In this document: positions 78 through 20,997 of the stretch, one piece after another
How the letters are laid out: each line of letters starts with the position of its first letter
Position numbering within the stretch: the first letter of the stretch is position 1
Virus record (IMG/VR): IMGVR_UViG_3300028595_000043
Span: 1-33,225 of that record
Source of the DNA: a virus
Reading direction: 5' to 3' (one strand)
DNA length: 33,225 nucleotides
Notes under the pieces: model-generated
The model's input: the letters and a program-made list of their open reading frames with translations, nothing else
What the model was told of the DNA's origin: nothing
Databases searched by the model: none
Program-made: the position numbers and the translations under genes

Positions 78-1649
78 ATGAGTGATATTGATGCCTTACA
101 GGAAAAAATCGGCGCTGGAAAAAGCACAGAAACAAGCACCGCTGTGGTCAATGGCAACGGGATCGATGATTTGGATCCTGATTTTATCCAGGAATGCCTC
201 AACGAGAATGAGTATGGAGATGGCAGAATATACAAAAGTAAGTTCGATGGGACTTTCATTTTTAACAAGAGCCTCGGGATGTGGATGAAGTGGGCAGGGC
301 ACCACTGGGAGCTGGATGTGATGGATGACTCCCTGGCCAACGTTGAGGTGGTGGCAAGGATTTACCAGGAAGAGGCGCGGCGTCTATCCGGAGAAAGATC
401 CGGGTTGAATGACGACGACCACAAAACCGAAAAAGACCGGCTGTCGAAGCTGATTAAAGAGCTGAACAAGAGGGCCAACCTGCTGCGGTCGAACCGGCGA
501 CGACGAAACGCCCTGGAGTTTGCCCACTCCAGTGAAGATGGACTGGCCACCCGGGGTGACGACACGGATCGGAAGCCTTGGCTCTTCCCATGTGCCAATG
601 GAGTGATCAACCTCAAGACCGGCGAACTCGAACCCGGCAAACAGAAAGACATGCTGCTGAAAGCGTCTCCGGTGGCGTGGGAGGGGATCGACGCTCCCTG
701 TCCCACATGGGAGAAGACCCTGATGGAGATATTTTCCGATCGGGAGCAGTTGGTGGAGTGCTTTCAACGGATCTGCGGGTATGCCATGGTCGGTGAGATT
801 GTACAGAGCGTGTTTGTCGTCATGACCGGCAAAGGGCGGAACGGCAAGAGCCTCATTGTGGAGACCATCAACAAACTGATGGGACCCATGGCCGGGGCGA
901 TCCGGTCAGAGATGTTGCTGGACCAGTGGCGGACGCCATCCAGCTCCGGGCCAAGTCCAGACATCATGGGACTCCAGGGTCTTCGGATGGCGTTTGGATC
1001 CGAGACAGACGACGGCTGCAAGATCTCCCCCTCCAGAGTCAAATGGCTGACCGGCAAGGACACGATCCGGGGGCGGAACCCCCACGACAAATTTGAGCAA
1101 GAGTTCCTCCCCTCTCATCTTCTATTTTTACTGACCAACCACAAGCCCCACGCCCCTGCCGAAGACTTCGCCTTTTGGGAGCGGATGCTGCTGATCCCCT
1201 TTGATCTATCCTTTGTGGATCGGGAACCGACCGCACCGGACGAGCGACGTGCGGATCCGCTTCTGGGTAACAAGTTGGAGGAAGAGCTCCCGGGAATCCT
1301 GGTTTGGATGGTGAAGGGCTGCCTCATCTGGCAGCAGCAGGGCATCGACCCACCCGCCATCGTCAAGTCTGCCGTTGCCGAGTACCAGAGGGAAGAGGAT
1401 GTGTTGTCAGACTTCATCGATGAGTGTTGCATTACCGGACCCGAATACTCAGTGGGAGCCACTGCCGTCTATTCCGCCTTTCAAAAATGGTGGGAGACCA
1501 ACGTATCAAAGAACGCTCCAAAGCAGAAACGATTCGGCACCTGGTTTTCCAAGCGGTTCAAGAAAGAGAAAGACGGCACAATGAAGTATTTCGGTGTGGC
1601 GTTGCTGGCCGAAGACGAGGATCTCCCGATGGAATTTGGTGGGATGTGA
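78..1649 (+). CDS. D5/P4-type phage SF3 replicative helicase (primase C-terminal half)
   Basis: Predicted ATP-dependent helicase that unwinds phage DNA at replication start. The 523-aa protein has a D5_N-like region (about residues 200-245, ending in the conserved aromatic-rich RICGYAMVGE segment), a Walker A GKGRNGKS at residues 251-258, an acidic Walker B-like SETDD near residue 310, and a sensor segment FLLTNHKPH followed by FWERMLLIPF. These are classic marks of the phage/plasmid primase P4 C-terminal family. No primase domain precedes it; that activity is encoded separately at 2055-3575. ACGGAG at 66-71 is a suitable ribosome site for the ATG. The 77 bases upstream hold only a TCGATTTTT direct repeat and a T-run, with no clear promoter. 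Family assignment is firm; the exact role at the origin is inferred. Confidence 0.93.
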   Translation: MSDIDALQEKIGAGKSTETSTAVVNGNGIDDLDPDFIQECLNENEYGDGRIYKSKFDGTFIFNKSLGMWMKWAGHHWELDVMDDSLANVEVVARIYQEEARRLSGERSGLNDDDHKTEKDRLSKLIKELNKRANLLRSNRRRRNALEFAHSSEDGLATRGDDTDRKPWLFPCANGVINLKTGELEPGKQKDMLLKASPVAWEGIDAPCPTWEKTLMEIFSDREQLVECFQRICGYAMVGEIVQSVFVVMTGKGRNGKSLIVETINKLMGPMAGAIRSEMLLDQWRTPSSSGPSPDIMGLQGLRMAFGSETDDGCKISPSRVKWLTGKDTIRGRNPHDKFEQEFLPSHLLFLLTNHKPHAPAEDFAFWERMLLIPFDLSFVDREPTAPDERRADPLLGNKLEEELPGILVWMVKGCLIWQQQGIDPPAIVKSAVAEYQREEDVLSDFIDECCITGPEYSVGATAVYSAFQKWWETNVSKNAPKQKRFGTWFSKRFKKEKDGTMKYFGVALLAEDEDLPMEFGGM

Positions 1650-1789
1650 TGGGAATAGACCGACCAACATATAAAAATGATTCACGGATAGACGTTTGAT
1701 CGTCCAGAAATAAATACAAATCATCCAGGGGCGTGGAACATGTCGATTTTACAAGCCAAAAATAGGAAACGGACAGGCATATTCGGAGA

Positions 1790-1871
1790 GTTGGACGGTT
1801 TTCCATATATCTTTTCTATTATCTTTATCTCTCTTTTTTATTTTCTCTTTTTCTATATAAAATCGTCCAAC
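1790..1871. repeat. 13-bp inverted repeat enclosing a G-free pyrimidine tract
   Basis: GTTGGACGGTTTT at 1790-1802 is complementary to AAAATCGTCCAAC at 1859-1871, with one G.U-type pair. The 56-nt interior contains no G at all on the + strand and is 47/56 pyrimidine. The arms belong to the same box family as three further copies in the gap. It may be an unwinding element or a regulator site. Confidence 0.7.
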
Positions 1872-1974
1872 TATCCAAAGAAAGAAAAGAAGTAATTGAA
1901 AAGATTGAAGGTTTTTCCCTTGGACAGACAGAGAGGGAAACCGTCTGAAACGCTCCAAACCGTCCGTAATGTCG

Positions 1975-2024
1975 GGCCAAACCAAGTCAAATCGGCTCAA
2001 ATCAGGTCAAACACGGTCAAAACC
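1975..2024 (+). repeat. Five tandem 10-bp iteron-like repeats
   Basis: Five adjacent decamers share a (T/C)CAAA core at exact 10-bp spacing (cores at 1977, 1987, 1997, 2007, 2017): GGCCAAACCA, AGTCAAATCG, GCTCAAATCA, GGTCAAACAC, GGTCAAAACC. One helical turn per unit suits cooperative binding on one face of DNA by an initiator or repressor. They end 30 bp before the primase start. Confidence 0.7.
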
Positions 2025-2054
2025 AAATAAAACAAAGGCCAACCGGAGGACACC

Positions 2055-3575
2055 ATGGGAATACTCGACGCTGTATCCAACAAAACCCAGGTCAAGAAAG
2101 TGGCATCCACCAAGGGCGGTGAGTATGCCGGGCCTTGCCCCATCTGCGGAGGATCCGACCGTTTTCGCGTTTGGCCGGCTGACAAGGGGGGCGAGGGATC
2201 TTGGTGGTGTCGGGGATGTGGCAAGGGGGGAGATTTGGTGCAATGGCATGTCGATTTCGAGGGTATGGCCTACAAAGACGCCTTCCGCGCTGCGGGGCGT
2301 GCCCCTCTCACACCGGATTCCGGCTATGTTTCCAAGCGCCAGCAACGGCTTCAGGCGGTAAGCACGCTCCCCGTTGCCGACAAAAAGCCCGATTTTATCC
2401 CGAGACGGCATGAATCCCCCATCGAGACGTGGCAAATCAAAGCGAGGGAGCTTGTGGATGCCTCTCACGCTCGGCTGCTTGAGACCCCCAAGGTGTTGGG
2501 GTGGCTCCATGCCCGCGGACTCGATTTAGATGCCGTCAAAGCGTTTTCCCTTGGCTGGTTTCCAGGGGAGCGTGACAATCCCTGCATGTGGCGGCCGAGA
2601 CTGTCCTGGGGGCTGCCCGAAGTGCTGAATAACAGTGGCAAGCCCAAAAAGCTCTGGATCCCCAGGGGCGTGGTGATCCCCTGGATCGTGAATGGGGAGA
2701 TCAAGCGGATCAAGATCCGGCGACCCAAGGCGGATCTTGGGGACAAGGGTGTTAAGTATTACCTCATTCCCGGCTCTGTATCCGAAGCGGCGCTCTTCAA
2801 TCCCGACCGAAAAGCGTTTGTTGTGCTGGAGTCTGAGCTGGATGCCATGCTTATTGCAGCCAAAGCTGGGGGACTGGTGGGCTCCGTCGCCCTGGGGTCT
2901 GCCGGTAACAAGCCCGGGGCGTATAGTTGGGATCGACTGCGGCATGCGCTGCGGGTGTTGGTGGCTTTGGATAACGATGATGCCGGTGACAAGGCGTATG
3001 CTTGGTGGTCTGAGCATTTCGATAACGCGAAACGATGGCCGGTCTCTGTTGGAAAAGATCCAGGGGAGGCGTTCGCCCAGGGCGTTGATATTCGGCAGTG
3101 GGTGATGGAGGGTCTTCCGCCGGTCATGACGCTGAATCTCAAACACAAACCCGGTGCTTCAGATCAAAATTCTTTGGCGGATGCATCTGTTGCCACAACA
3201 CCTTCCGGTGCGGCATTGCCCAAGGCGTCGTCGGAAAGCCTACTCACTGACGCGACGAATGACCCGATTCCGTCGGCGATTCAACCGGACCCGGCGGAAT
3301 CGGAGACGGCACAGGGGGCGGATGACGCTGTGGGTGGGAATGACGACTGGCTTCCCCAGGCCATCATCGATCTCCGGGAGATCATACAGCGTTATCCAGT
3401 GAAGATTATCTGCACGGAGGGGCGTCTGGCGATCGTAAACCACCCTGATTTTCGAAACGAACCCGTTTTGAACCGGCTGTCAGATCTTGTCTTCTGGGAT
3501 CCGAACGTCGGCGCTTTTCTGGATTCATTTCCAAAAAACGAAATCCATCGCGGAAATTTTGCTGAGGGGCTATAA
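2055..3575 (+). CDS. Phage DNA primase with CHC2-type zinc finger and Toprim domain
   Basis: Predicted primase making RNA primers for phage replication. The 506-aa protein begins with a zinc-binding domain (C28, C31, C52, C55, as CPIC and CRGC) like P4-alpha/DnaG-type primases. A central Toprim fold is marked by VVLESELDA (probable catalytic E259) and VALDNDDAGDKA with the metal-binding D306/D308, then GKDPGEAF. The tail after about residue 375 is low-complexity, followed by a small C-terminal domain without a recognised match. GGAGGAC just upstream fixes the ATG. With the helicase at 78-1649 it reconstitutes the two activities that P4 alpha carries in one chain. Family confidence is high; the C-terminal domain function is unknown. 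Confidence 0.93.
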   Translation: MGILDAVSNKTQVKKVASTKGGEYAGPCPICGGSDRFRVWPADKGGEGSWWCRGCGKGGDLVQWHVDFEGMAYKDAFRAAGRAPLTPDSGYVSKRQQRLQAVSTLPVADKKPDFIPRRHESPIETWQIKARELVDASHARLLETPKVLGWLHARGLDLDAVKAFSLGWFPGERDNPCMWRPRLSWGLPEVLNNSGKPKKLWIPRGVVIPWIVNGEIKRIKIRRPKADLGDKGVKYYLIPGSVSEAALFNPDRKAFVVLESELDAMLIAAKAGGLVGSVALGSAGNKPGAYSWDRLRHALRVLVALDNDDAGDKAYAWWSEHFDNAKRWPVSVGKDPGEAFAQGVDIRQWVMEGLPPVMTLNLKHKPGASDQNSLADASVATTPSGAALPKASSESLLTDATNDPIPSAIQPDPAESETAQGADDAVGGNDDWLPQAIIDLREIIQRYPVKIICTEGRLAIVNHPDFRNEPVLNRLSDLVFWDPNVGAFLDSFPKNEIHRGNFAEGL

Positions 3576-3581
3576 AAAGTG

Positions 3582-3610
3582 TTGACAAGCGCAAAAAATA
3601 CACATAAGAC
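3582..3610 (+). promoter_or_regulatory. Candidate sigma70 promoter of the immunity leader
   Basis: A perfect TTGACA (3582-3587) is followed after 17 bp by TAAGAC (3605-3610), a weak -10. Its place just upstream of the C4 RNA leader matches the early leader promoter of P4-like elements. The call rests on the -35 and position. Confidence 0.5.
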
Positions 3611-3641
3611 TGGCGGTGATCGTGGCAAAATCCACGATTCG

Positions 3642-3667
3642 GGTTTGGCGACCCGGCTTCAGATAGG
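3642..3667 (+). promoter_or_regulatory. seqA-like upstream antisense target
   Basis: The segment at 3641-3667 is complementary to C4 positions 3769-3793: 24 of 25 C4 positions pair, with two single-base bulges on this side. In phage P4 the CI RNA pairs through seqB with seqA and seqC in the leader and provokes premature termination; this segment has the seqA position. Complementarity is read directly; function is by analogy. Confidence 0.75.
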
Positions 3668-3704
3668 CACACAGGCGGTGCCTCAATTGGATACCGCTTT
3701 TTTT
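3665..3704 (+). terminator. Leader intrinsic terminator with competing hairpin
   Basis: GCGGT (3675-3679) can pair with ACCGC (3693-3697), immediately followed by seven T residues (3698-3704), an intrinsic terminator shape. An alternative stem AGGCAC (3665-3670)/GTGCCT (3678-3683) overlaps it and is mutually exclusive. Because seqA covers 3665-3667, antisense pairing would break the alternative stem and favour the terminator. Confidence 0.6.
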
Positions 3705-3727
3705 GTGTGTTGCAATTCCGCTATTAC

Positions 3728-3806
3728 GGGCGGGGTGCATTGGGAGACCGAAAGGTCTGCCGGTTTTTCCTATCTGAGCCGGTTCGCCAACCCGATGCGC
3801 CCCGCC
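3728..3806 (+). ncRNA. C4-type antisense RNA (P4 CI / P1 C4 family)
   Basis: A small immunity RNA. Outer stem GGCGGGGTGCAT (3729-3740) pairs with ATGCGCCCCGCC (3795-3806), one G.U. Inside are a GAAA-capped hairpin AGACC/GGTCT (3745-3758) and the antisense segment at 3767-3793 with the GCCGGTTCGCCAACCC signature known from enterobacterial C4/Ash loci. The antisense segment matches targets both upstream (3641-3667) and downstream (3852-3862). In P4 and P1 such RNAs are processed from the leader transcript and keep the prophage silent. Ends are approximate; recognition is by remembered consensus and visible pairing. Confidence 0.87.
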
Positions 3807-3839
3807 TTTTCTATTTTGGCGAGTAGAAAGCGGGGTTTT
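3800..3839 (+). terminator. Terminator overlapping the 3' arm of the C4 RNA
   Basis: CCCCGC (3800-3805) plus TTTCTA (3808-3813) pair with TAGAAAGCGGGG (3824-3835), loop of 10 nt, followed by TTTT. The 5' arm is also the 3' arm of the C4 outer stem, so the two folds exclude each other. It could end the C4 transcript or act as a second attenuation point. Confidence 0.6.
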
Positions 3840-3851
3840 CAAAAACTCAGA

Positions 3852-3862
3852 TCAGATAGGAA
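3852..3862 (+). promoter_or_regulatory. seqC-like target over the leader-ORF ribosome site
   Basis: TCAGATAGGAA here is perfectly complementary to C4 positions 3767-3777 and contains the AGG-type ribosome site for the ATG at 3870. Pairing would block translation of the leader ORF, as P1 C4 RNA blocks icd. Confidence 0.72.
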
Positions 3863-3869
3863 TCCCACC

Positions 3870-3998
3870 ATGAAAAATCCATCCATAGGTGCACATGCGC
3901 CCATTCCCGTTATCACGCCATTCTTTCAAAAATTCAAAACATCACATCGCCTTTCATCAACAGGCGCTCGGAGGACTATATGGACAACACGATCGTAA
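3870..3998 (+). CDS. 42-aa leader ORF (Icd/Ash-like position)
   Basis: Short reading frame starting MKNPSIGAHAPIPVITPFF. It begins 7 nt after the C4-complementary segment and overlaps the start of the 417-aa gene by 19 nt. The same frame is open back to a GTG at 3579 (139 codons), and translation across the C4 region resembles Ash-family (Phage_ASH) proteins (for example LSRFANPMRPAF). That long version would start on the promoter -35 and is probably not made. In P1, icd translation is needed for expression of the overlapping ant gene; this ORF sits in the same arrangement. Whether the peptide itself acts is unknown. Confidence 0.5.
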   Translation: MKNPSIGAHAPIPVITPFFQKFKTSHRLSSTGARRTIWTTRS

Positions 3999-5233
3999 CA
4001 ATAAACTCCCCACAGACTACGACCGCTCTATCTCGTACCGGGTGGGATCTCCCTGCAAATATGACCGAAGCCGACTGGAAACGTGCCGGTCAACTGCTTA
4101 TGGAAGTCAACCAAGCAAGACAGTGGTGGCTCGGTGACTGGTGGAATGCCTGCAAGTGGGGAGATGATCGGCGAAAAGAGATTTGTAAGCAAATCGGGGT
4201 GGAATATCCAACGGCTAAAAATGCAGGATGGGTTTCAAGGAAATTTGAAATGTCTCGTCGCCGAGACAACTTGACATTCACCCATCACCATGAAGCAGCT
4301 TCCATCTCCGACCCCGCTATCCAAGACCAATTCCTTGACTGGTGTCTCTCTGGTGAAAAAAGAAAATCAGTCCGTGATCTCAGGGAGAAGGTCCAGGAAT
4401 ATCTGGAAAAGAAGGATTGGGAGGACTTTGATGCGGAGGTCTTTCTCGGTGCTGGTCGGGTCCAAGAGTATGAACAGAAACTGGCTGAGGCAAACAAGCG
4501 GATTCAAGAGCTTCAAGATGAGTGTCAAAGCATGTTTCTGCGGGGGACGAAAAAGTATGACCTTAACAACCTCATTCCAGAGTTGTCGGCGCTGCACACT
4601 TCCGGCGACATCCTGGAGCATCGGGCCAAGATACTTTCAACGCTTCCCGAAGAGCATCAGAAAATCTATTACGCTGAAATCAAAACAAAACAGTATTTTG
4701 CTGACAAACTTCATAAGGCAAATGAGGCGGAAAAAGAGGCCAGGGCGATGTCCGAAGAGGCACGGGCCAAGCTTCAGGAACTGGCAGCCAGGCCGGAACC
4801 GAAACCGAAGATTGTGGAAAAGGTGGTCGAAGTTGAAAAGCTTCCGGAGGATTTTGAAAAGCGGCAAAAAGAGGTTGAAAAAAAAGATCGCCAGGCGACC
4901 AAGATTTTGAAAACCGTCGGAGAGCTTCAAAAAGAAAGAGATGAGTTGGAAAAAGAGGCCGACGCTATTCACAAAGAGCGAATGGAGTTGAAACGAAAGC
5001 TGAAGGCGATGGAGTCTAAACAAGATGTCAGCCCGTCAAGTATCGATACTGCCAGGGCTTTAAAACTTGGAAGGATGTTAAAAGAGTTGGACTGGGTGTT
5101 TCCAGACATTCGAAGTGAGGCCAAACTGGCGGGTGGTGGAATGGAGGAAACAAAAAAGATGATAACGAGTCTTATTCAGAAATGGGCTTCGATTCTCGAA
5201 GAGATCGATGGTTATGCGATTATAGACGTTTAA
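3980..5233 (+). CDS. C4-controlled DNA-binding-like coiled-coil protein (candidate antirepressor/regulator)
   Basis: A 417-aa protein with no firmly recognised family. The N-terminal third (residues 15-140) is Trp-rich and helical and contains FTHHHEAASI, then DQFLDWC and SVRDLREKV. That pattern recurs in LmbU-like and ParB-like DNA-binding domains. Residues about 150-370 are charged coiled coil with KPKIVEKVVEVEKLP at its centre, and a short globular tail follows. GGAGGA at 3970-3975 gives a strong ribosome site, and the start lies inside the leader ORF. By position downstream of a C4 RNA it corresponds to P1 ant, so it may be the gene that C4 silences. It lacks visible KilA-N/ANT motifs, so antirepressor function is inference only. 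It could also act in partition or replication. Confidence 0.75.
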   Translation: MDNTIVTINSPQTTTALSRTGWDLPANMTEADWKRAGQLLMEVNQARQWWLGDWWNACKWGDDRRKEICKQIGVEYPTAKNAGWVSRKFEMSRRRDNLTFTHHHEAASISDPAIQDQFLDWCLSGEKRKSVRDLREKVQEYLEKKDWEDFDAEVFLGAGRVQEYEQKLAEANKRIQELQDECQSMFLRGTKKYDLNNLIPELSALHTSGDILEHRAKILSTLPEEHQKIYYAEIKTKQYFADKLHKANEAEKEARAMSEEARAKLQELAARPEPKPKIVEKVVEVEKLPEDFEKRQKEVEKKDRQATKILKTVGELQKERDELEKEADAIHKERMELKRKLKAMESKQDVSPSSIDTARALKLGRMLKELDWVFPDIRSEAKLAGGGMEETKKMITSLIQKWASILEEIDGYAIIDV

Positions 5234-6877: not shown

Positions 6878-6947
6878 GGGCTGAACGGCGAGTGATGAAG
6901 GCAGAACGATAAACGATGAATGCTGAACGATGATGGATGACCGATGA
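6878..6947 (+). repeat. Heptamer array A (NNNNTGA type)
   Basis: Ten uninterrupted degenerate 7-mers, mostly ending in TGA: GGGCTGA, ACGGCGA, GTGATGA, AGGCAGA, ACGATAA, ACGATGA, ATGCTGA, ACGATGA, TGGATGA, CCGATGA. As 7 is not a multiple of 3, stops fall in every + strand frame. The small Cys gene at 6937 starts inside it. Confidence 0.75.
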
Positions 6948-7152
6948 GGTGCGAGTGACCGACACCATCCCAAAAGAAGCGGCGGTTGAGCTTGGGCTTT
7001 GCAAAACCTGCAATCTGTTTCGAAAAGCAGGGAAAAACAAGCCAGAACAGTGTGTGGCGACATTGCTGCCGTCACTAAACTGGCGGGGAACGCCGGTGGG
7101 GCACTGTGTCTTTTCGGCTGCGGAGAGAAAAGAGCGGCTCTCAAGGGGCTGA
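6937..7152 (+). CDS. Small four-cysteine protein (hypothetical)
   Basis: 71 aa with C22, C25 (CKTC), C39 and C57, a spacing compatible with binding one zinc or iron-sulfur site, and a charged C-terminus. The ATG lies within heptamer array A and follows an in-frame TGA by two codons. No good ribosome site is present; GTG codons at 6949 and 6955 are alternatives. It is bracketed by two heptamer arrays. The similar Cys segment at the N-terminus of the MazG-like protein (CKNNCEHYELW, then CFACKAR) is worth noting. Function unknown. Confidence 0.6.
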   Translation: MTDEVRVTDTIPKEAAVELGLCKTCNLFRKAGKNKPEQCVATLLPSLNWRGTPVGHCVFSAAERKERLSRG

Positions 7153-11181: not shown

Positions 11182-11612
11182 TGACAAAAAACGAAAAGAT
11201 GGAATACATTGCGACACTGGCCCTGATACGGGCCATCCCGGACATGAGCATCGGCAACATTCGAAATGGACGGCTGAAATCGATTTACAGCCGACTCCAA
11301 ACTGCCGTCGATTTGAAGTTAAAGCAGTTTGGCAGACTCAGCGATTCGGATATCCTTGGGATTCGATCCCGGGTTTTCCGGTTTGGAAAGGCTTCCGGGT
11401 GGGAGCGGAACGAGAAGGATGTGGCGCTGCTGCTCTCTTTTGTTCTCGGGCTCATCGAGGACGCTCCCCACAGCTATCCAGACCGTATTGTAAAAGAGTT
11501 GAATAATGCCTTTGAGTTTGTCTCAAGGCCAGACATTGACGACCCCGACATATCGGACGTTGAAAGTGCGATAGGGGCATGGAAACAAACGAAAGAGAGG
11601 GAGATGGCATGA
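11181..11612 (+). CDS. Hypothetical helical protein
   Basis: 143 aa starting at the ATG that shares a base with the upstream TGA (TGATG). The frame is open much further upstream but that part overlaps the Cys-rich gene and is not needed. The sequence is predicted all-helical and soluble, with no obvious motif. It overlaps the MazG-like gene as ATGA, so it belongs to the coupled accessory cassette. Function unknown. Confidence 0.72.
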   Translation: MTKNEKMEYIATLALIRAIPDMSIGNIRNGRLKSIYSRLQTAVDLKLKQFGRLSDSDILGIRSRVFRFGKASGWERNEKDVALLLSFVLGLIEDAPHSYPDRIVKELNNAFEFVSRPDIDDPDISDVESAIGAWKQTKEREMA

Positions 11613-12115
11613 CAGAGACCAGAAACGAAGCCGGACCAGAGACCCATGGGACATCGAGTTCGTATCAAGAAGCGTTTTGTAAAAACAACTGTGAGCATTA
11701 CGAGTTGTGGAAGGCCGGAAACCGGCAGCACTGTTTCGCCTGCAAGGCCAGGGCCTTTCACGGCTATCTTGAGAAGGCGGGATATAAGATCGTGAGGTCA
11801 TCCACACTCTCCATGAACGAATATCAGGTCATGGCGTCCAAGTCCATGCAGCCACAATGCAACAACTTTAAGTATTTGGGGCTCGGCCTTGCCGGGGAGA
11901 CCGGCGAGTTTTGCGACAAGCTAAAGCGCCTCATCCGTGGAGACGGCGCTCCCAGTGACGACCTCATCGAGGAAGGCGGGGACATCTTGTGGTATCTTTC
12001 CCAGCTATTCTCTTTGTTTTTAATCGATATGGAGGATGCCGCCCGGCGAAATTTGAAAAAACTGGACTCTCGCATGGATCGCGGGGTGATTTCGGGGAAG
12101 GGGGACAATCGATGA
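11609..12115 (+). CDS. MazG-like nucleotide pyrophosphohydrolase
   Basis: 168 aa. Residues about 85-150 contain the all-alpha NTP pyrophosphohydrolase signature: LGLAGETGEFCDKLKRLI with E97 and E100, then IEEGGDILWYLSQL with E121/E122 and D125, giving the ExxE-ExxD metal site. Such enzymes hydrolyse NTPs or dNTPs to NMP and pyrophosphate; phage copies may tune nucleotide pools or lower ppGpp. The N-terminus adds a Cys cluster (C24, C28, C42, C45) not part of the core MazG fold. AGAGGGAGATGG precedes ATG 11609. It lies next to ThyX, consistent with nucleotide metabolism. Substrate is unknown. Confidence 0.85.
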   Translation: MTETRNEAGPETHGTSSSYQEAFCKNNCEHYELWKAGNRQHCFACKARAFHGYLEKAGYKIVRSSTLSMNEYQVMASKSMQPQCNNFKYLGLGLAGETGEFCDKLKRLIRGDGAPSDDLIEEGGDILWYLSQLFSLFLIDMEDAARRNLKKLDSRMDRGVISGKGDNR

Positions 12116-12768
12116 AGATCATCGACCCATCCTTCGAGATCCTTCAGGCCCTTCCCAGGGAAAGGGCCTATGAAATCATCGAGACCGCCGGCCGGGTCTG
12201 CTATCGATCGGAACCCAGGCACAGCGATCAAGAACGGTTTATTCAGAAGATTGTCCGATCCGGTCACGAGTCGGTGATCGAGCACGTTAGCGTCACCGCA
12301 AAGATCGTGTGTGACCGGGGCGTGAGTCACGAGCTGGTGCGGCATCGTTTGGCCAGTTACTCACAGGAATCGACTCGGTACGCCAACTATGCAAAAGATA
12401 AATTCGGGCGTGAGATCACGGTGATTCGCCCCTGCTTCTGGATGGATGGTGTGGGGGCTTTTGGTTGTAAATCAAAAGAGATGAATCGGTGGGAGCAAGC
12501 CATGAAAACCGCAGAACACAATTACATGACGTTGATTGATTGGGGATGCCCGCCGGAACAGGCCCGAACGGTGCTCCCCAACTCTCTCGCCACCACGGTC
12601 ATCGTCACCGCCAACATTCGGGAATGGCGCCACATCTTTCGCCTTCGCATTTCCAGTCGTGCCCACCCTCAGATTCGTCAGGTCATGAAAATGGGGGTCA
12701 TCGAGATGTCGAGTCTCTATCCGGCGCTGTTTGGAGACATGTCTCCGGCAAAGCCAATGGAGGCGTGA
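12112..12768 (+). CDS. thyX: Flavin-dependent thymidylate synthase
   Basis: 218 aa enzyme converting dUMP to dTMP using FAD, NADPH and methylene-tetrahydrofolate. The ThyX signature RHR-x7-S-x-R is present as R77-H78-R79 through S87-T-R89. Also present are GHESVIEH (51-58) and a C-terminal ISSRAHPQIRQ region. Length is typical of the family. The ATG overlaps the MazG-like stop as ATGA. Phages carry ThyX to supply thymidylate for replication. All key residues appear intact, so the enzyme is probably active. Confidence 0.96.
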   Translation: MKIIDPSFEILQALPRERAYEIIETAGRVCYRSEPRHSDQERFIQKIVRSGHESVIEHVSVTAKIVCDRGVSHELVRHRLASYSQESTRYANYAKDKFGREITVIRPCFWMDGVGAFGCKSKEMNRWEQAMKTAEHNYMTLIDWGCPPEQARTVLPNSLATTVIVTANIREWRHIFRLRISSRAHPQIRQVMKMGVIEMSSLYPALFGDMSPAKPMEA

Positions 12769-19933: not shown

Positions 19934-20218
19934 GTGGTTCACAATCTTTCAGGTGAGGATCTGTCACGAATTTTGGACCACTCCAGATCCGAAGATTTCG
20001 GGAGGATCAAGCAGGCCGTCGAGGATCTTAGATCCGGGGTCGATGTTTTAGATCGTCGCATCGATCAATTAGATAGGCGATTGGATCAGCAGGACGTCTC
20101 CATCGCCGTCATGAAGGTGAAAATTATGTGGTGGTCGTCCCTGGCAGCCACCCTTTTGAGCAGCGCCATCACCTATGCAGTGTCGCAGGTTTTAAAAAAC
20201 GGCGGAAACAATCCATGA
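19934..20218 (+). CDS. Small coiled-coil membrane protein (XhlA-like shape)
   Basis: 94 aa with GTG start at 19934 served by GGAGAGGGG. Residues 15-60 form a heptad coiled coil (IKQAVEDLRSGVDVLDRRID, LDRRLDQQDVSIAVMKVKI). Residues 65-85 are a transmembrane helix (WWSSLAATLLSSAITYAVSQ). This is the architecture of hemolysin XhlA-like proteins, some linked to phage lysis, though here it lies among structural genes. It overlaps the PAS-protein start as ATGA, hinting at a joint membrane function. The XhlA relation is by shape only. Confidence 0.72.
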   Translation: MVHNLSGEDLSRILDHSRSEDFGRIKQAVEDLRSGVDVLDRRIDQLDRRLDQQDVSIAVMKVKIMWWSSLAATLLSSAITYAVSQVLKNGGNNP

Positions 20219-20997
20219 ATATCATGATTCATCAATATCACATTTTCCCGTTTGCCATCGTCTTCCTGCTGCTGATCTATTTTTTTTACGAGATGATCCT
20301 GCTCCACATCACCAAGAGCCATGAGCGGGTCATCAGCGAAACCAACATTCAAAATCAACTCAATCTTCATTATGCCCTGGATGACATCTCCGAGTTTATC
20401 GAGCAATTCGAACTCACTCAGAAGATGCTCGAAAACATGACCACCATGGTGGACCAGATCAGCGGGATCTCCATGTGGATCAAGGATCGGGACGATCGAT
20501 ATGTTTATGCAAACCGAAGCGTTCGAAAGCTCTTGTTTAACGATGCTCCGGTGGAAGAGATGATTGGCAAACTCGATTCGGAGATTATTGGAAAAGAAGT
20601 ACCAGACGGGATCTACAAAAAACTGGAGGCGGCGTTGGTCGGCATAGCGCCGGAAGATCTGCCAAAGCTCTCCATGGAGTTGTTTAATGGGGGATTGATC
20701 TGCAACCTGACGGATGTGATCACCCGCTCTTTCAAAAAACCGTGTCGATTTCATGAAGAGGTGGGGGATTTGACCCTCGACGTGTGGAAAACGCCGGTGA
20801 TGGATCGAGACGGAAACGTGATCGCAACGGTAGGGGCCCTGGTGGATGTCACCCGATACCACGGGGAGCGCCGGGATCAATTACAATACATGATGAGTAT
20901 GGGCCGGGCGTTTCGGATTGACTCGACCCGAAACTATTATCTCCGCCGGTACGACTTCGGCGGGTTTGAAGAAGAGTGCGAGGTGATATTTCAATGA
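20215..20997 (+). CDS. Membrane-anchored PAS-domain protein
   Basis: 260 aa. Residues 9-31 are a single N-terminal transmembrane helix (IFPFAIVFLLLIYFFYEMIL) and residues 35-78 a helical linker. A PAS domain follows: MWIKDRDDRYVYANRSVRKL (87-106) with the VYAN signature, and its closing strands LDVWKTPVMDRDGNVIATVG (188-207) ending VDVTRYH. No kinase, GGDEF, methyl-accepting or HTH output domain follows; the last 40 residues are short and charged. PAS domains sense redox, ligands or mediate pairing. ATG 20215 overlaps the coiled-coil membrane gene; the frame is open to 20128 but that part overlaps it. An unexpected gene in a phage head-tail operon; role unknown. Confidence 0.85.
   Translation: MNIMIHQYHIFPFAIVFLLLIYFFYEMILLHITKSHERVISETNIQNQLNLHYALDDISEFIEQFELTQKMLENMTTMVDQISGISMWIKDRDDRYVYANRSVRKLLFNDAPVEEMIGKLDSEIIGKEVPDGIYKKLEAALVGIAPEDLPKLSMELFNGGLICNLTDVITRSFKKPCRFHEEVGDLTLDVWKTPVMDRDGNVIATVGALVDVTRYHGERRDQLQYMMSMGRAFRIDSTRNYYLRRYDFGGFEEECEVIFQ

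Follow-up and report, generated by a model that had tools for sequence, protein, structure and literature searches.

The C4 antisense RNA of phage P1 is excised from a longer transcript by RNase P, and the CI RNA of phage P4 acts via premature termination of the replication genes. In the immI operon of P1 the c4 RNA is 77 nt long, begins with GG, and carries b' in the loop of stem P3 and a' in the junction; the sites a1/b1 (48255-48276, annotated as 'putative') lie upstream of it, and the sites a2/b2 (48423-48459) lie downstream, followed by icd, which overlaps ant1 (AF234172). In Gifsy-1, partial read-through of isrK yields an orf45-anrP mRNA, IsrK supplied in trans raises the translation of anrP 140-fold via orf45, and a processed RNA from downstream of isrK, STnc1160, is complementary to IsrK (PMC4825925). 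An action of STnc1160 on the IsrK terminator was discussed by the authors, not established; they favour direct binding of IsrK to the mRNA, and co-expression of orf45/STnc1160 left the toxicity of IsrK unabolished (PMC4825925). In B. cenocepacia an 81-nt isrK with a terminator and a C4 belong to one transcriptional unit (PMC4603805), A. baumannii expresses C4-like RNAs at high levels and apparently processes them (PMC5320573), and Weinberg et al. list C4 and c4-a1b1 for Proteobacteria and phages (PMC2864571). An antisense-RNA switch of this kind is already known from P1 and Gifsy-1, where it controls the induction gene; in P1 it is annotated with four pairing sites.

The window analysed here is the whole 33,225-base virus record IMGVR_UViG_3300028595_000043. 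We consider it likely that 3576-3998 holds an entire isrK-C4-leader-regulator operon comparable to immI of P1 and isrK of Gifsy-1, acting as proposed below. Its features, together with the two genes that precede it, are as follows.

78-1649: D5-type helicase gene, upstream of the C4 unit.
2055-3575: primase gene, upstream of the C4 unit.
3582-3610, + strand: candidate promoter read from the sequence, TTGACA (3582-3587), 17 nt, TAAGAC (3605-3610).
3619-3703, + strand: isrK-like leader RNA with two hairpins and a terminator; matches to RF01394 and RF03163 below cut-off.
3619-3638, + strand: 5' hairpin of the isrK-like leader.
3640-3655, + strand: a1 hairpin, CGGGT-TTGGCG-ACCCG, helix 98.5% paired over 41 loci.
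3645-3651, + strand: a1 target TTGGCGA, exact complement of a' of C4.
3659-3667, + strand: b1 target TCAGATAGG, exact complement of the P3 loop of C4.
3665-3683, + strand: candidate antiterminator hairpin, AGGCAC (3665-3670)/GTGCCT (3678-3683), found by inspection of the sequence.
3668-3709, + strand: intrinsic terminator, GCGGT (3675-3679)/ACCGC (3693-3697), then seven T (3698-3704).
3668-3673/3704-3709, + strand: outer stem of the terminator, CACACA/TGTGTG.
3729-3806, + strand: C4 antisense RNA, expected processed form of 78 nt (RF01695 match 3723-3812).
3767-3777, + strand: b' of C4 (P3 loop), complementary to b1 and b2.
3784-3790, + strand: a' of C4, complementary to a1 and a2.
3799-3836, + strand: hairpin with a2 in its loop, then TTTT, -20.4 kcal/mol.
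3816-3822, + strand: a2 target TTGGCGA, 7-nt complement of a'.
3852-3862, + strand: b2 target TCAGATAGGAA, exact 11-nt complement of C4 3767-3777.
3870-3998, + strand: leader ORF of 42 aa in the icd/orf45 position, ATG 3870, stop 3998.
3980-5233, + strand: gene for a 417-aa protein, LmbU-like DNA-binding domain (aa 19-153) plus coiled coil.

The C4 RNA is the sole over-threshold Rfam match in the whole window: RF01695 scores 60 bits (E 2.2e-9; gathering score 45 bits) over its full model (1-87) at 3723-3812 on the + strand, and the predicted fold (-53.3 kcal/mol) contains stems P1, P2 and P3. A GG at 3729, where the processed RNA should begin, would fit cleavage by RNase P. The antisense strand of C4 (3768-3795) pairs with 3640-3668 at a calculated hybrid energy of -45.7 kcal/mol, with exact cores at a1 and b1, and downstream a' and b' are complementary to a2 (-11.6 kcal/mol) and b2 (-17.1 kcal/mol) around a ribosome site, b2 overlying the Shine-Dalgarno AGGA of the leader ORF. 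This ORF overlaps the 417-aa gene (ATG at 3980) by 19 nt, much as icd overlaps ant1 in P1. An earlier note on this DNA, drawn up from the letters alone, had already proposed the C4-type RNA with the stems found here, the upstream complementarity (at 3641-3667), the 11-of-11 match over the ribosome site downstream and the icd-like overlapping leader ORF, and all of these stand; its inventory of pairing sites lacked a2, and in the upstream region it saw the complementarity and overlooked the terminator (3675-3704) and the 5' hairpin.

In 20,000 shuffles b1 matches of at least 9 nt and b2 matches of at least 11 nt were obtained with p=0.003 and p=0.0003, respectively, and TCAGATAGG occurs on the + strand of the entire window at positions 3659 and 3852 only. 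The spacing resembles that of P1, with 62 nt vs 67 nt from b1 to C4, 30 nt vs 23 nt from a2 to b2, and 8 nt vs 11 nt from b2 to the ATG. The a1 hairpin shows pairs changed on both sides in the pair counts over 41 loci. The a2 hairpin uses the 3' arm of the outer stem of C4, and a2 lies inside the loop of a stem of at least 5 bp in 55 of 75 C4 loci, vs 19% when shuffled. The strength of this hairpin and the TTTT behind it make a second terminator at 3799-3836 possible.

To place the locus, viral contigs and genomes were searched for C4-like loci with a pattern as well as a model; a folding filter and the removal of similar sequences left 86 loci, and 83 once three false ones had been taken out. 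Matches of at least 7 nt were found for a1 at 83/86 loci, for a2 at 73/86, for b1 at 57/86 and for b2 at 62/86, and in 3-5% of the controls, which for b' consisted of loops swapped between loci (4-5%); the four-site a1/b1/a2/b2 layout is the rule for C4. Several pattern matches of the first scan (Actinomycetota, Chloroflexi and others) were due to chance, and one in D. cuneatus failed the Rfam model and was kept only as the centre of the phylum search. One locus from another phylum (L250) has a1, a2 and b2, with no detectable b1 match or terminator. The earlier note had stated that P4 and P1 layouts are both present in the locus. Sites upstream and downstream of C4 are the canonical P1 layout (AF234172), and given the P1 annotation, the families RF03163 and RF01394, and an upstream a1 at 83 of 86 loci, the statement describes P1 itself and is no novelty.

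The candidate promoter upstream of C4 has no entry in a consensus promoter scan, owing to its weak -10 box; the c4 promoters of P1 lie at the equivalent place, 5' of a1 (AF234172). The leader that follows matches RF01394 (isrK) over the full model (1-77) with 41.9 bits (E 6.4e-8) in a permissive Rfam search, below the cut-off of 50, and in a 341-base search 3605-3659 matches RF03163 (c4-a1b1) with 38.7 bits (E 1.7e-8), below the cut-off of 46.7. Judged by these scores, the upstream part is a close relative of isrK and c4-a1b1 and a curated member of neither; having exact a1 and b1 sites, it would work like c4-a1b1 despite its score. At five other loci (L152, L180, L220, L243 and L245) an isrK above its own cut-off is found beside C4.

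The combination of C4 with the gene behind the leader ORF is the single really unusual point of the locus. Among 45 first larger genes scanned after C4, 18 matched phrog_245 (Ant) and 16 Bro-N, with further families comprising P22_AR_N, Rha, ORF6N, AntA and KilA-N, so that by family assignment antirepressors predominate behind the other C4s; the first cistron starts 54-80 nt past the C4 core at loci for which a start was found. Among these 45 genes, that of the window was the only one like LmbU. The 417-aa protein matches NCBIfam NF038070 (LmbU) with E 2.2e-23 and 83.1 bits, below the cut-off of 125, and in tblastn has 36% identity to LmbU-family proteins of Streptomyces (E 4e-18), the helix-turn-helix stretch of LmbU being kept; by these matches it contains a domain homologous to LmbU and is not a filed member of NF038070. 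Beyond this domain it is predicted to be helical, with coiled-coil-type matches. Domain and family searches gave no match to Ant, Bro-N, KilA-N or related antirepressors and no significant Pfam or PHROG match, solved structures gave no sequence match, and the predicted structure (mean pLDDT 45.7) was unusable. Neither the locus DNA nor the 417-aa protein matched cultured phages, in which the N-terminal domain found weak matches to terminase genes only (E at least 0.08), and searches of viral contigs with the 417-aa protein or the primase returned no related loci. A search for the LmbU domain in the D. cuneatus phylum (297 genomes) gave none. LmbU-like domains occur in 25 viral contigs, some of them fused to apparent adenine methyltransferases, which suggests that they are common phage modules; C4 was absent from all 20 other viral LmbU-like loci scanned. 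In L280, L282, L283, L285-L287 and L289 the LmbU-like N-terminus is fused to an apparent adenine methyltransferase of the MT-A70 type, an assignment made from the motif DPPW read from the sequence.

From this arrangement we infer an operon working as follows. The promoter around 3582-3610 would make the leader RNA, much of which would end at the terminator (3698-3704) and give a short isrK-like RNA bearing a1 and b1. Read-through RNA would contain C4, which would then be cut out, and the a' and b' of free C4 would pair with a2 and b2 and thereby mask the leader ORF (42 aa) at its ribosome site; with the leader ORF blocked, coupled translation of the overlapping 417-aa regulator would be prevented. 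The isrK-like RNA, for which the calculated pairing with C4 is much stronger than for a2 and b2, would be the antagonist of C4, sequestering it in trans, and in uncut transcripts a1 and b1 would neutralise C4 by pairing in cis, an arrangement that is also predicted in the minimum-energy fold of the read-through transcript (3616-3900). The regulator would be an LmbU-like DNA-binding protein, most likely in the role that antirepressors fill elsewhere; this role is a guess, since the protein matches no antirepressor family. Points against the proposed operon are the weak -10 box and the isrK and c4-a1b1 scores below the curated cut-offs, while the preference of the Gifsy-1 authors and their result on IsrK toxicity argue against pure titration of C4 (PMC4825925).

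The intrinsic terminator, which sits between a1/b1 and C4, raises the question of whether C4 also acts on transcription. A terminator between b1 and C4 was detected at 63/83 loci (shuffle mean 7.8, maximum 17), with an outer stem of at least 5 bp beyond the T-run at 78% of loci vs 13% when shuffled. A counterpart of the candidate antiterminator, starting in or just after b1 and sharing the 5' arm of the terminator, was detected at 40/83 loci vs 1.3 in shuffles, and at 13.3/63 in a conditional control in which the real terminator was kept and the sequence 5' of it shuffled; the automatic hairpin detector overlooked the one in the window, which was identified by inspection. There its 5' arm overlaps b1, and the truncated transcript is predicted to fold with -14.5 kcal/mol. 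Pairing of C4 with b1 might thus break the antiterminator and stop transcription before C4, a negative feedback on C4 and the regulator that would come closest to P4 immunity and that was suggested, not established, for STnc1160 (PMC4825925). In a 41-locus alignment both helices are kept via changes on both sides, including a linked change of G-C-G to C-G-C across three strands, but this set was mostly picked for the presence of both hairpins, the commonest covariation (a G/C split) may represent few events, and the mispairs in the row of the window are an alignment artefact. With b1 blocked in the folding model, the predicted probability of the terminator averaged 0.79 instead of 0.56 (up at 25/41 loci, down at 1/41); however, blocking a control stretch also raised it, to a mean of 0.63 and at 16/41 loci, and in the window and P1 the terminator wins at equilibrium with or without the block. 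Many Pseudomonas loci have no terminator, and C4 would be shutting off its own supply. Given that the window and P1 do not respond to the b1 block, attenuation by C4 is possible rather than demonstrated, and we put it forward tentatively. In view of isrK and the discussion of Gifsy-1, the terminator element does not count as undescribed. The broadest reading, which we regard as doubtful, is that of a general switch, present in tens of phage lineages, with C4 and the isrK-like leader as mutual antagonists, in which C4 attenuates its own operon via b1 and the antiterminator and the terminated leader is a sponge for C4, rewired here to an LmbU-type regulator.

The window also encodes a lambda-type terminase, a portal and tail genes. 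Relatives of the helicase reach 494 bits and 46% identity in the D. cuneatus phylum (26/297 genomes), vs a maximum of 233 bits in the Halomonas phylum (21/296 genomes), and show about 30% identity among the best matches listed for cultured phages; C4 above the cut-off was found in 5/395 genomes of the D. cuneatus phylum and in 0/14 control genomes. Judged by the helicase, a single gene, the host phylum is probably that of Desulfovibrio. The setting outside enterobacteria that the earlier note had stressed is thus right for the probable host and no news for C4, known across Proteobacteria from Weinberg et al. (PMC2864571). The note's inference that this RNA keeps the prophage silent is a conjecture: the ORFs searched in the window included no recognisable gene for an integrase or a repressor, which leaves the term 'prophage' unsupported by the window, and the gene behind C4 is LmbU-like and not a known antirepressor. 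The switch may have a part in lysogeny. Elsewhere in the window, 20128-20997 encodes a protein with a PAS domain (PAS_4, E 3.9e-7) and possibly a membrane helix at its N-terminus; it stands among tail and head genes, an odd place for a sensor-like protein, and genes of nucleotide metabolism (a MazG-type pyrophosphohydrolase and the thymidylate synthase ThyX) occupy 11579-12768.

Most relatives of the helicase and primase genes are without C4 at the corresponding site, while one of them (L112) has C4 followed by a BRO-N gene, and by this example C4 plus its target, located between primase and terminase, behaves as a cassette that can be exchanged. The same phage has a 71-aa cysteine-containing protein (L112:3196-3411) that by eye is like one of the window (6937-7152); their positions relative to C4 differ. 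The rarity of C4 among the relatives, which makes it dispensable for the lineage, together with a gene after C4 unlike the usual target, could mean that the module is a relic or a passenger cassette with no present function in this virus. We consider this improbable: the stems are intact; b1 and b2 are exact to the phage-specific b' loop and a1 and a2 match a', matches that would be lost by drift if unselected; and L112 has a different b' with its own matching b1 and b2. A P4-type immunity region, in which the sole effect of the RNA would be to terminate transcription of replication genes, is very improbable: the antisense segment flanked by complementary sites, the terminator and the adjoining helicase and primase genes would suit it, but those genes (78-3575) lie upstream of C4 and do not belong to the unit controlled by the RNA, b2 lies over a ribosome site as it does in P1, and the Rfam model matched is that of P1-type C4.

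Two things appear to be new in the favoured isrK-C4-leader-regulator operon, both read from sequence comparison: the occurrence of C4 modules in the D. cuneatus phylum, which is also home to the closest genomic relatives of the helicase, and a controlled gene that combines an LmbU-like domain with a coiled coil and is no known antirepressor. A limited literature search found no earlier report of the module in the Desulfovibrio host group. The P1-type antisense switch is extended to phages of what is probably the Desulfovibrio phylum, which suggests an RNA module that can be transferred as a cassette and whose output gene can change, and the comparison of 83-86 loci yields predictions, both concrete and testable, for the upstream half (a1/b1, the terminator and the isrK-like RNA), which has been little studied.

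Compared with described systems, the locus shares with the CI RNA of P4 (seqA/seqB/seqC) a single antisense segment that has complements both upstream and downstream; unlike in P4, the downstream site covers a ribosome site, and the RNA does not precede a replication operon, the replication genes being upstream. With Streptomyces LmbU regulators the 417-aa protein shares the N-terminal DNA-binding region including the helix-turn-helix (34-40% identity), but it scores 83 bits vs 125, continues as a long coiled coil where LmbU has its C-terminal part, and is encoded by a phage gene behind C4. The ncS23 (isrK)/ncS24 (C4) pair of B. cenocepacia likewise forms one unit, with a terminator after isrK and about 20 nt between the two, although it lies on a Burkholderia chromosome. 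The isrK-STnc1160-orf45-anrP locus of Gifsy-1 has, in its published description, the same terminated isrK RNA, complementary processed read-through RNA and short ORF coupled to a regulator gene, whereas the window scores 41.9 vs 50 for isrK and its regulator is not AnrP-like. To immI of P1 (c4-icd-ant1) the likeness extends to C4 with a1/b1 upstream and a2/b2 downstream, their order and similar spacing, a short leader ORF that overlaps the next gene and has b2 over its ribosome site, and a terminator-like hairpin between b1 and C4; unlike P1, with its Ant and the neighbours sim and kilA in E. coli, the window places an LmbU-like coiled-coil protein under C4, among helicase, primase and terminase genes and in another host.
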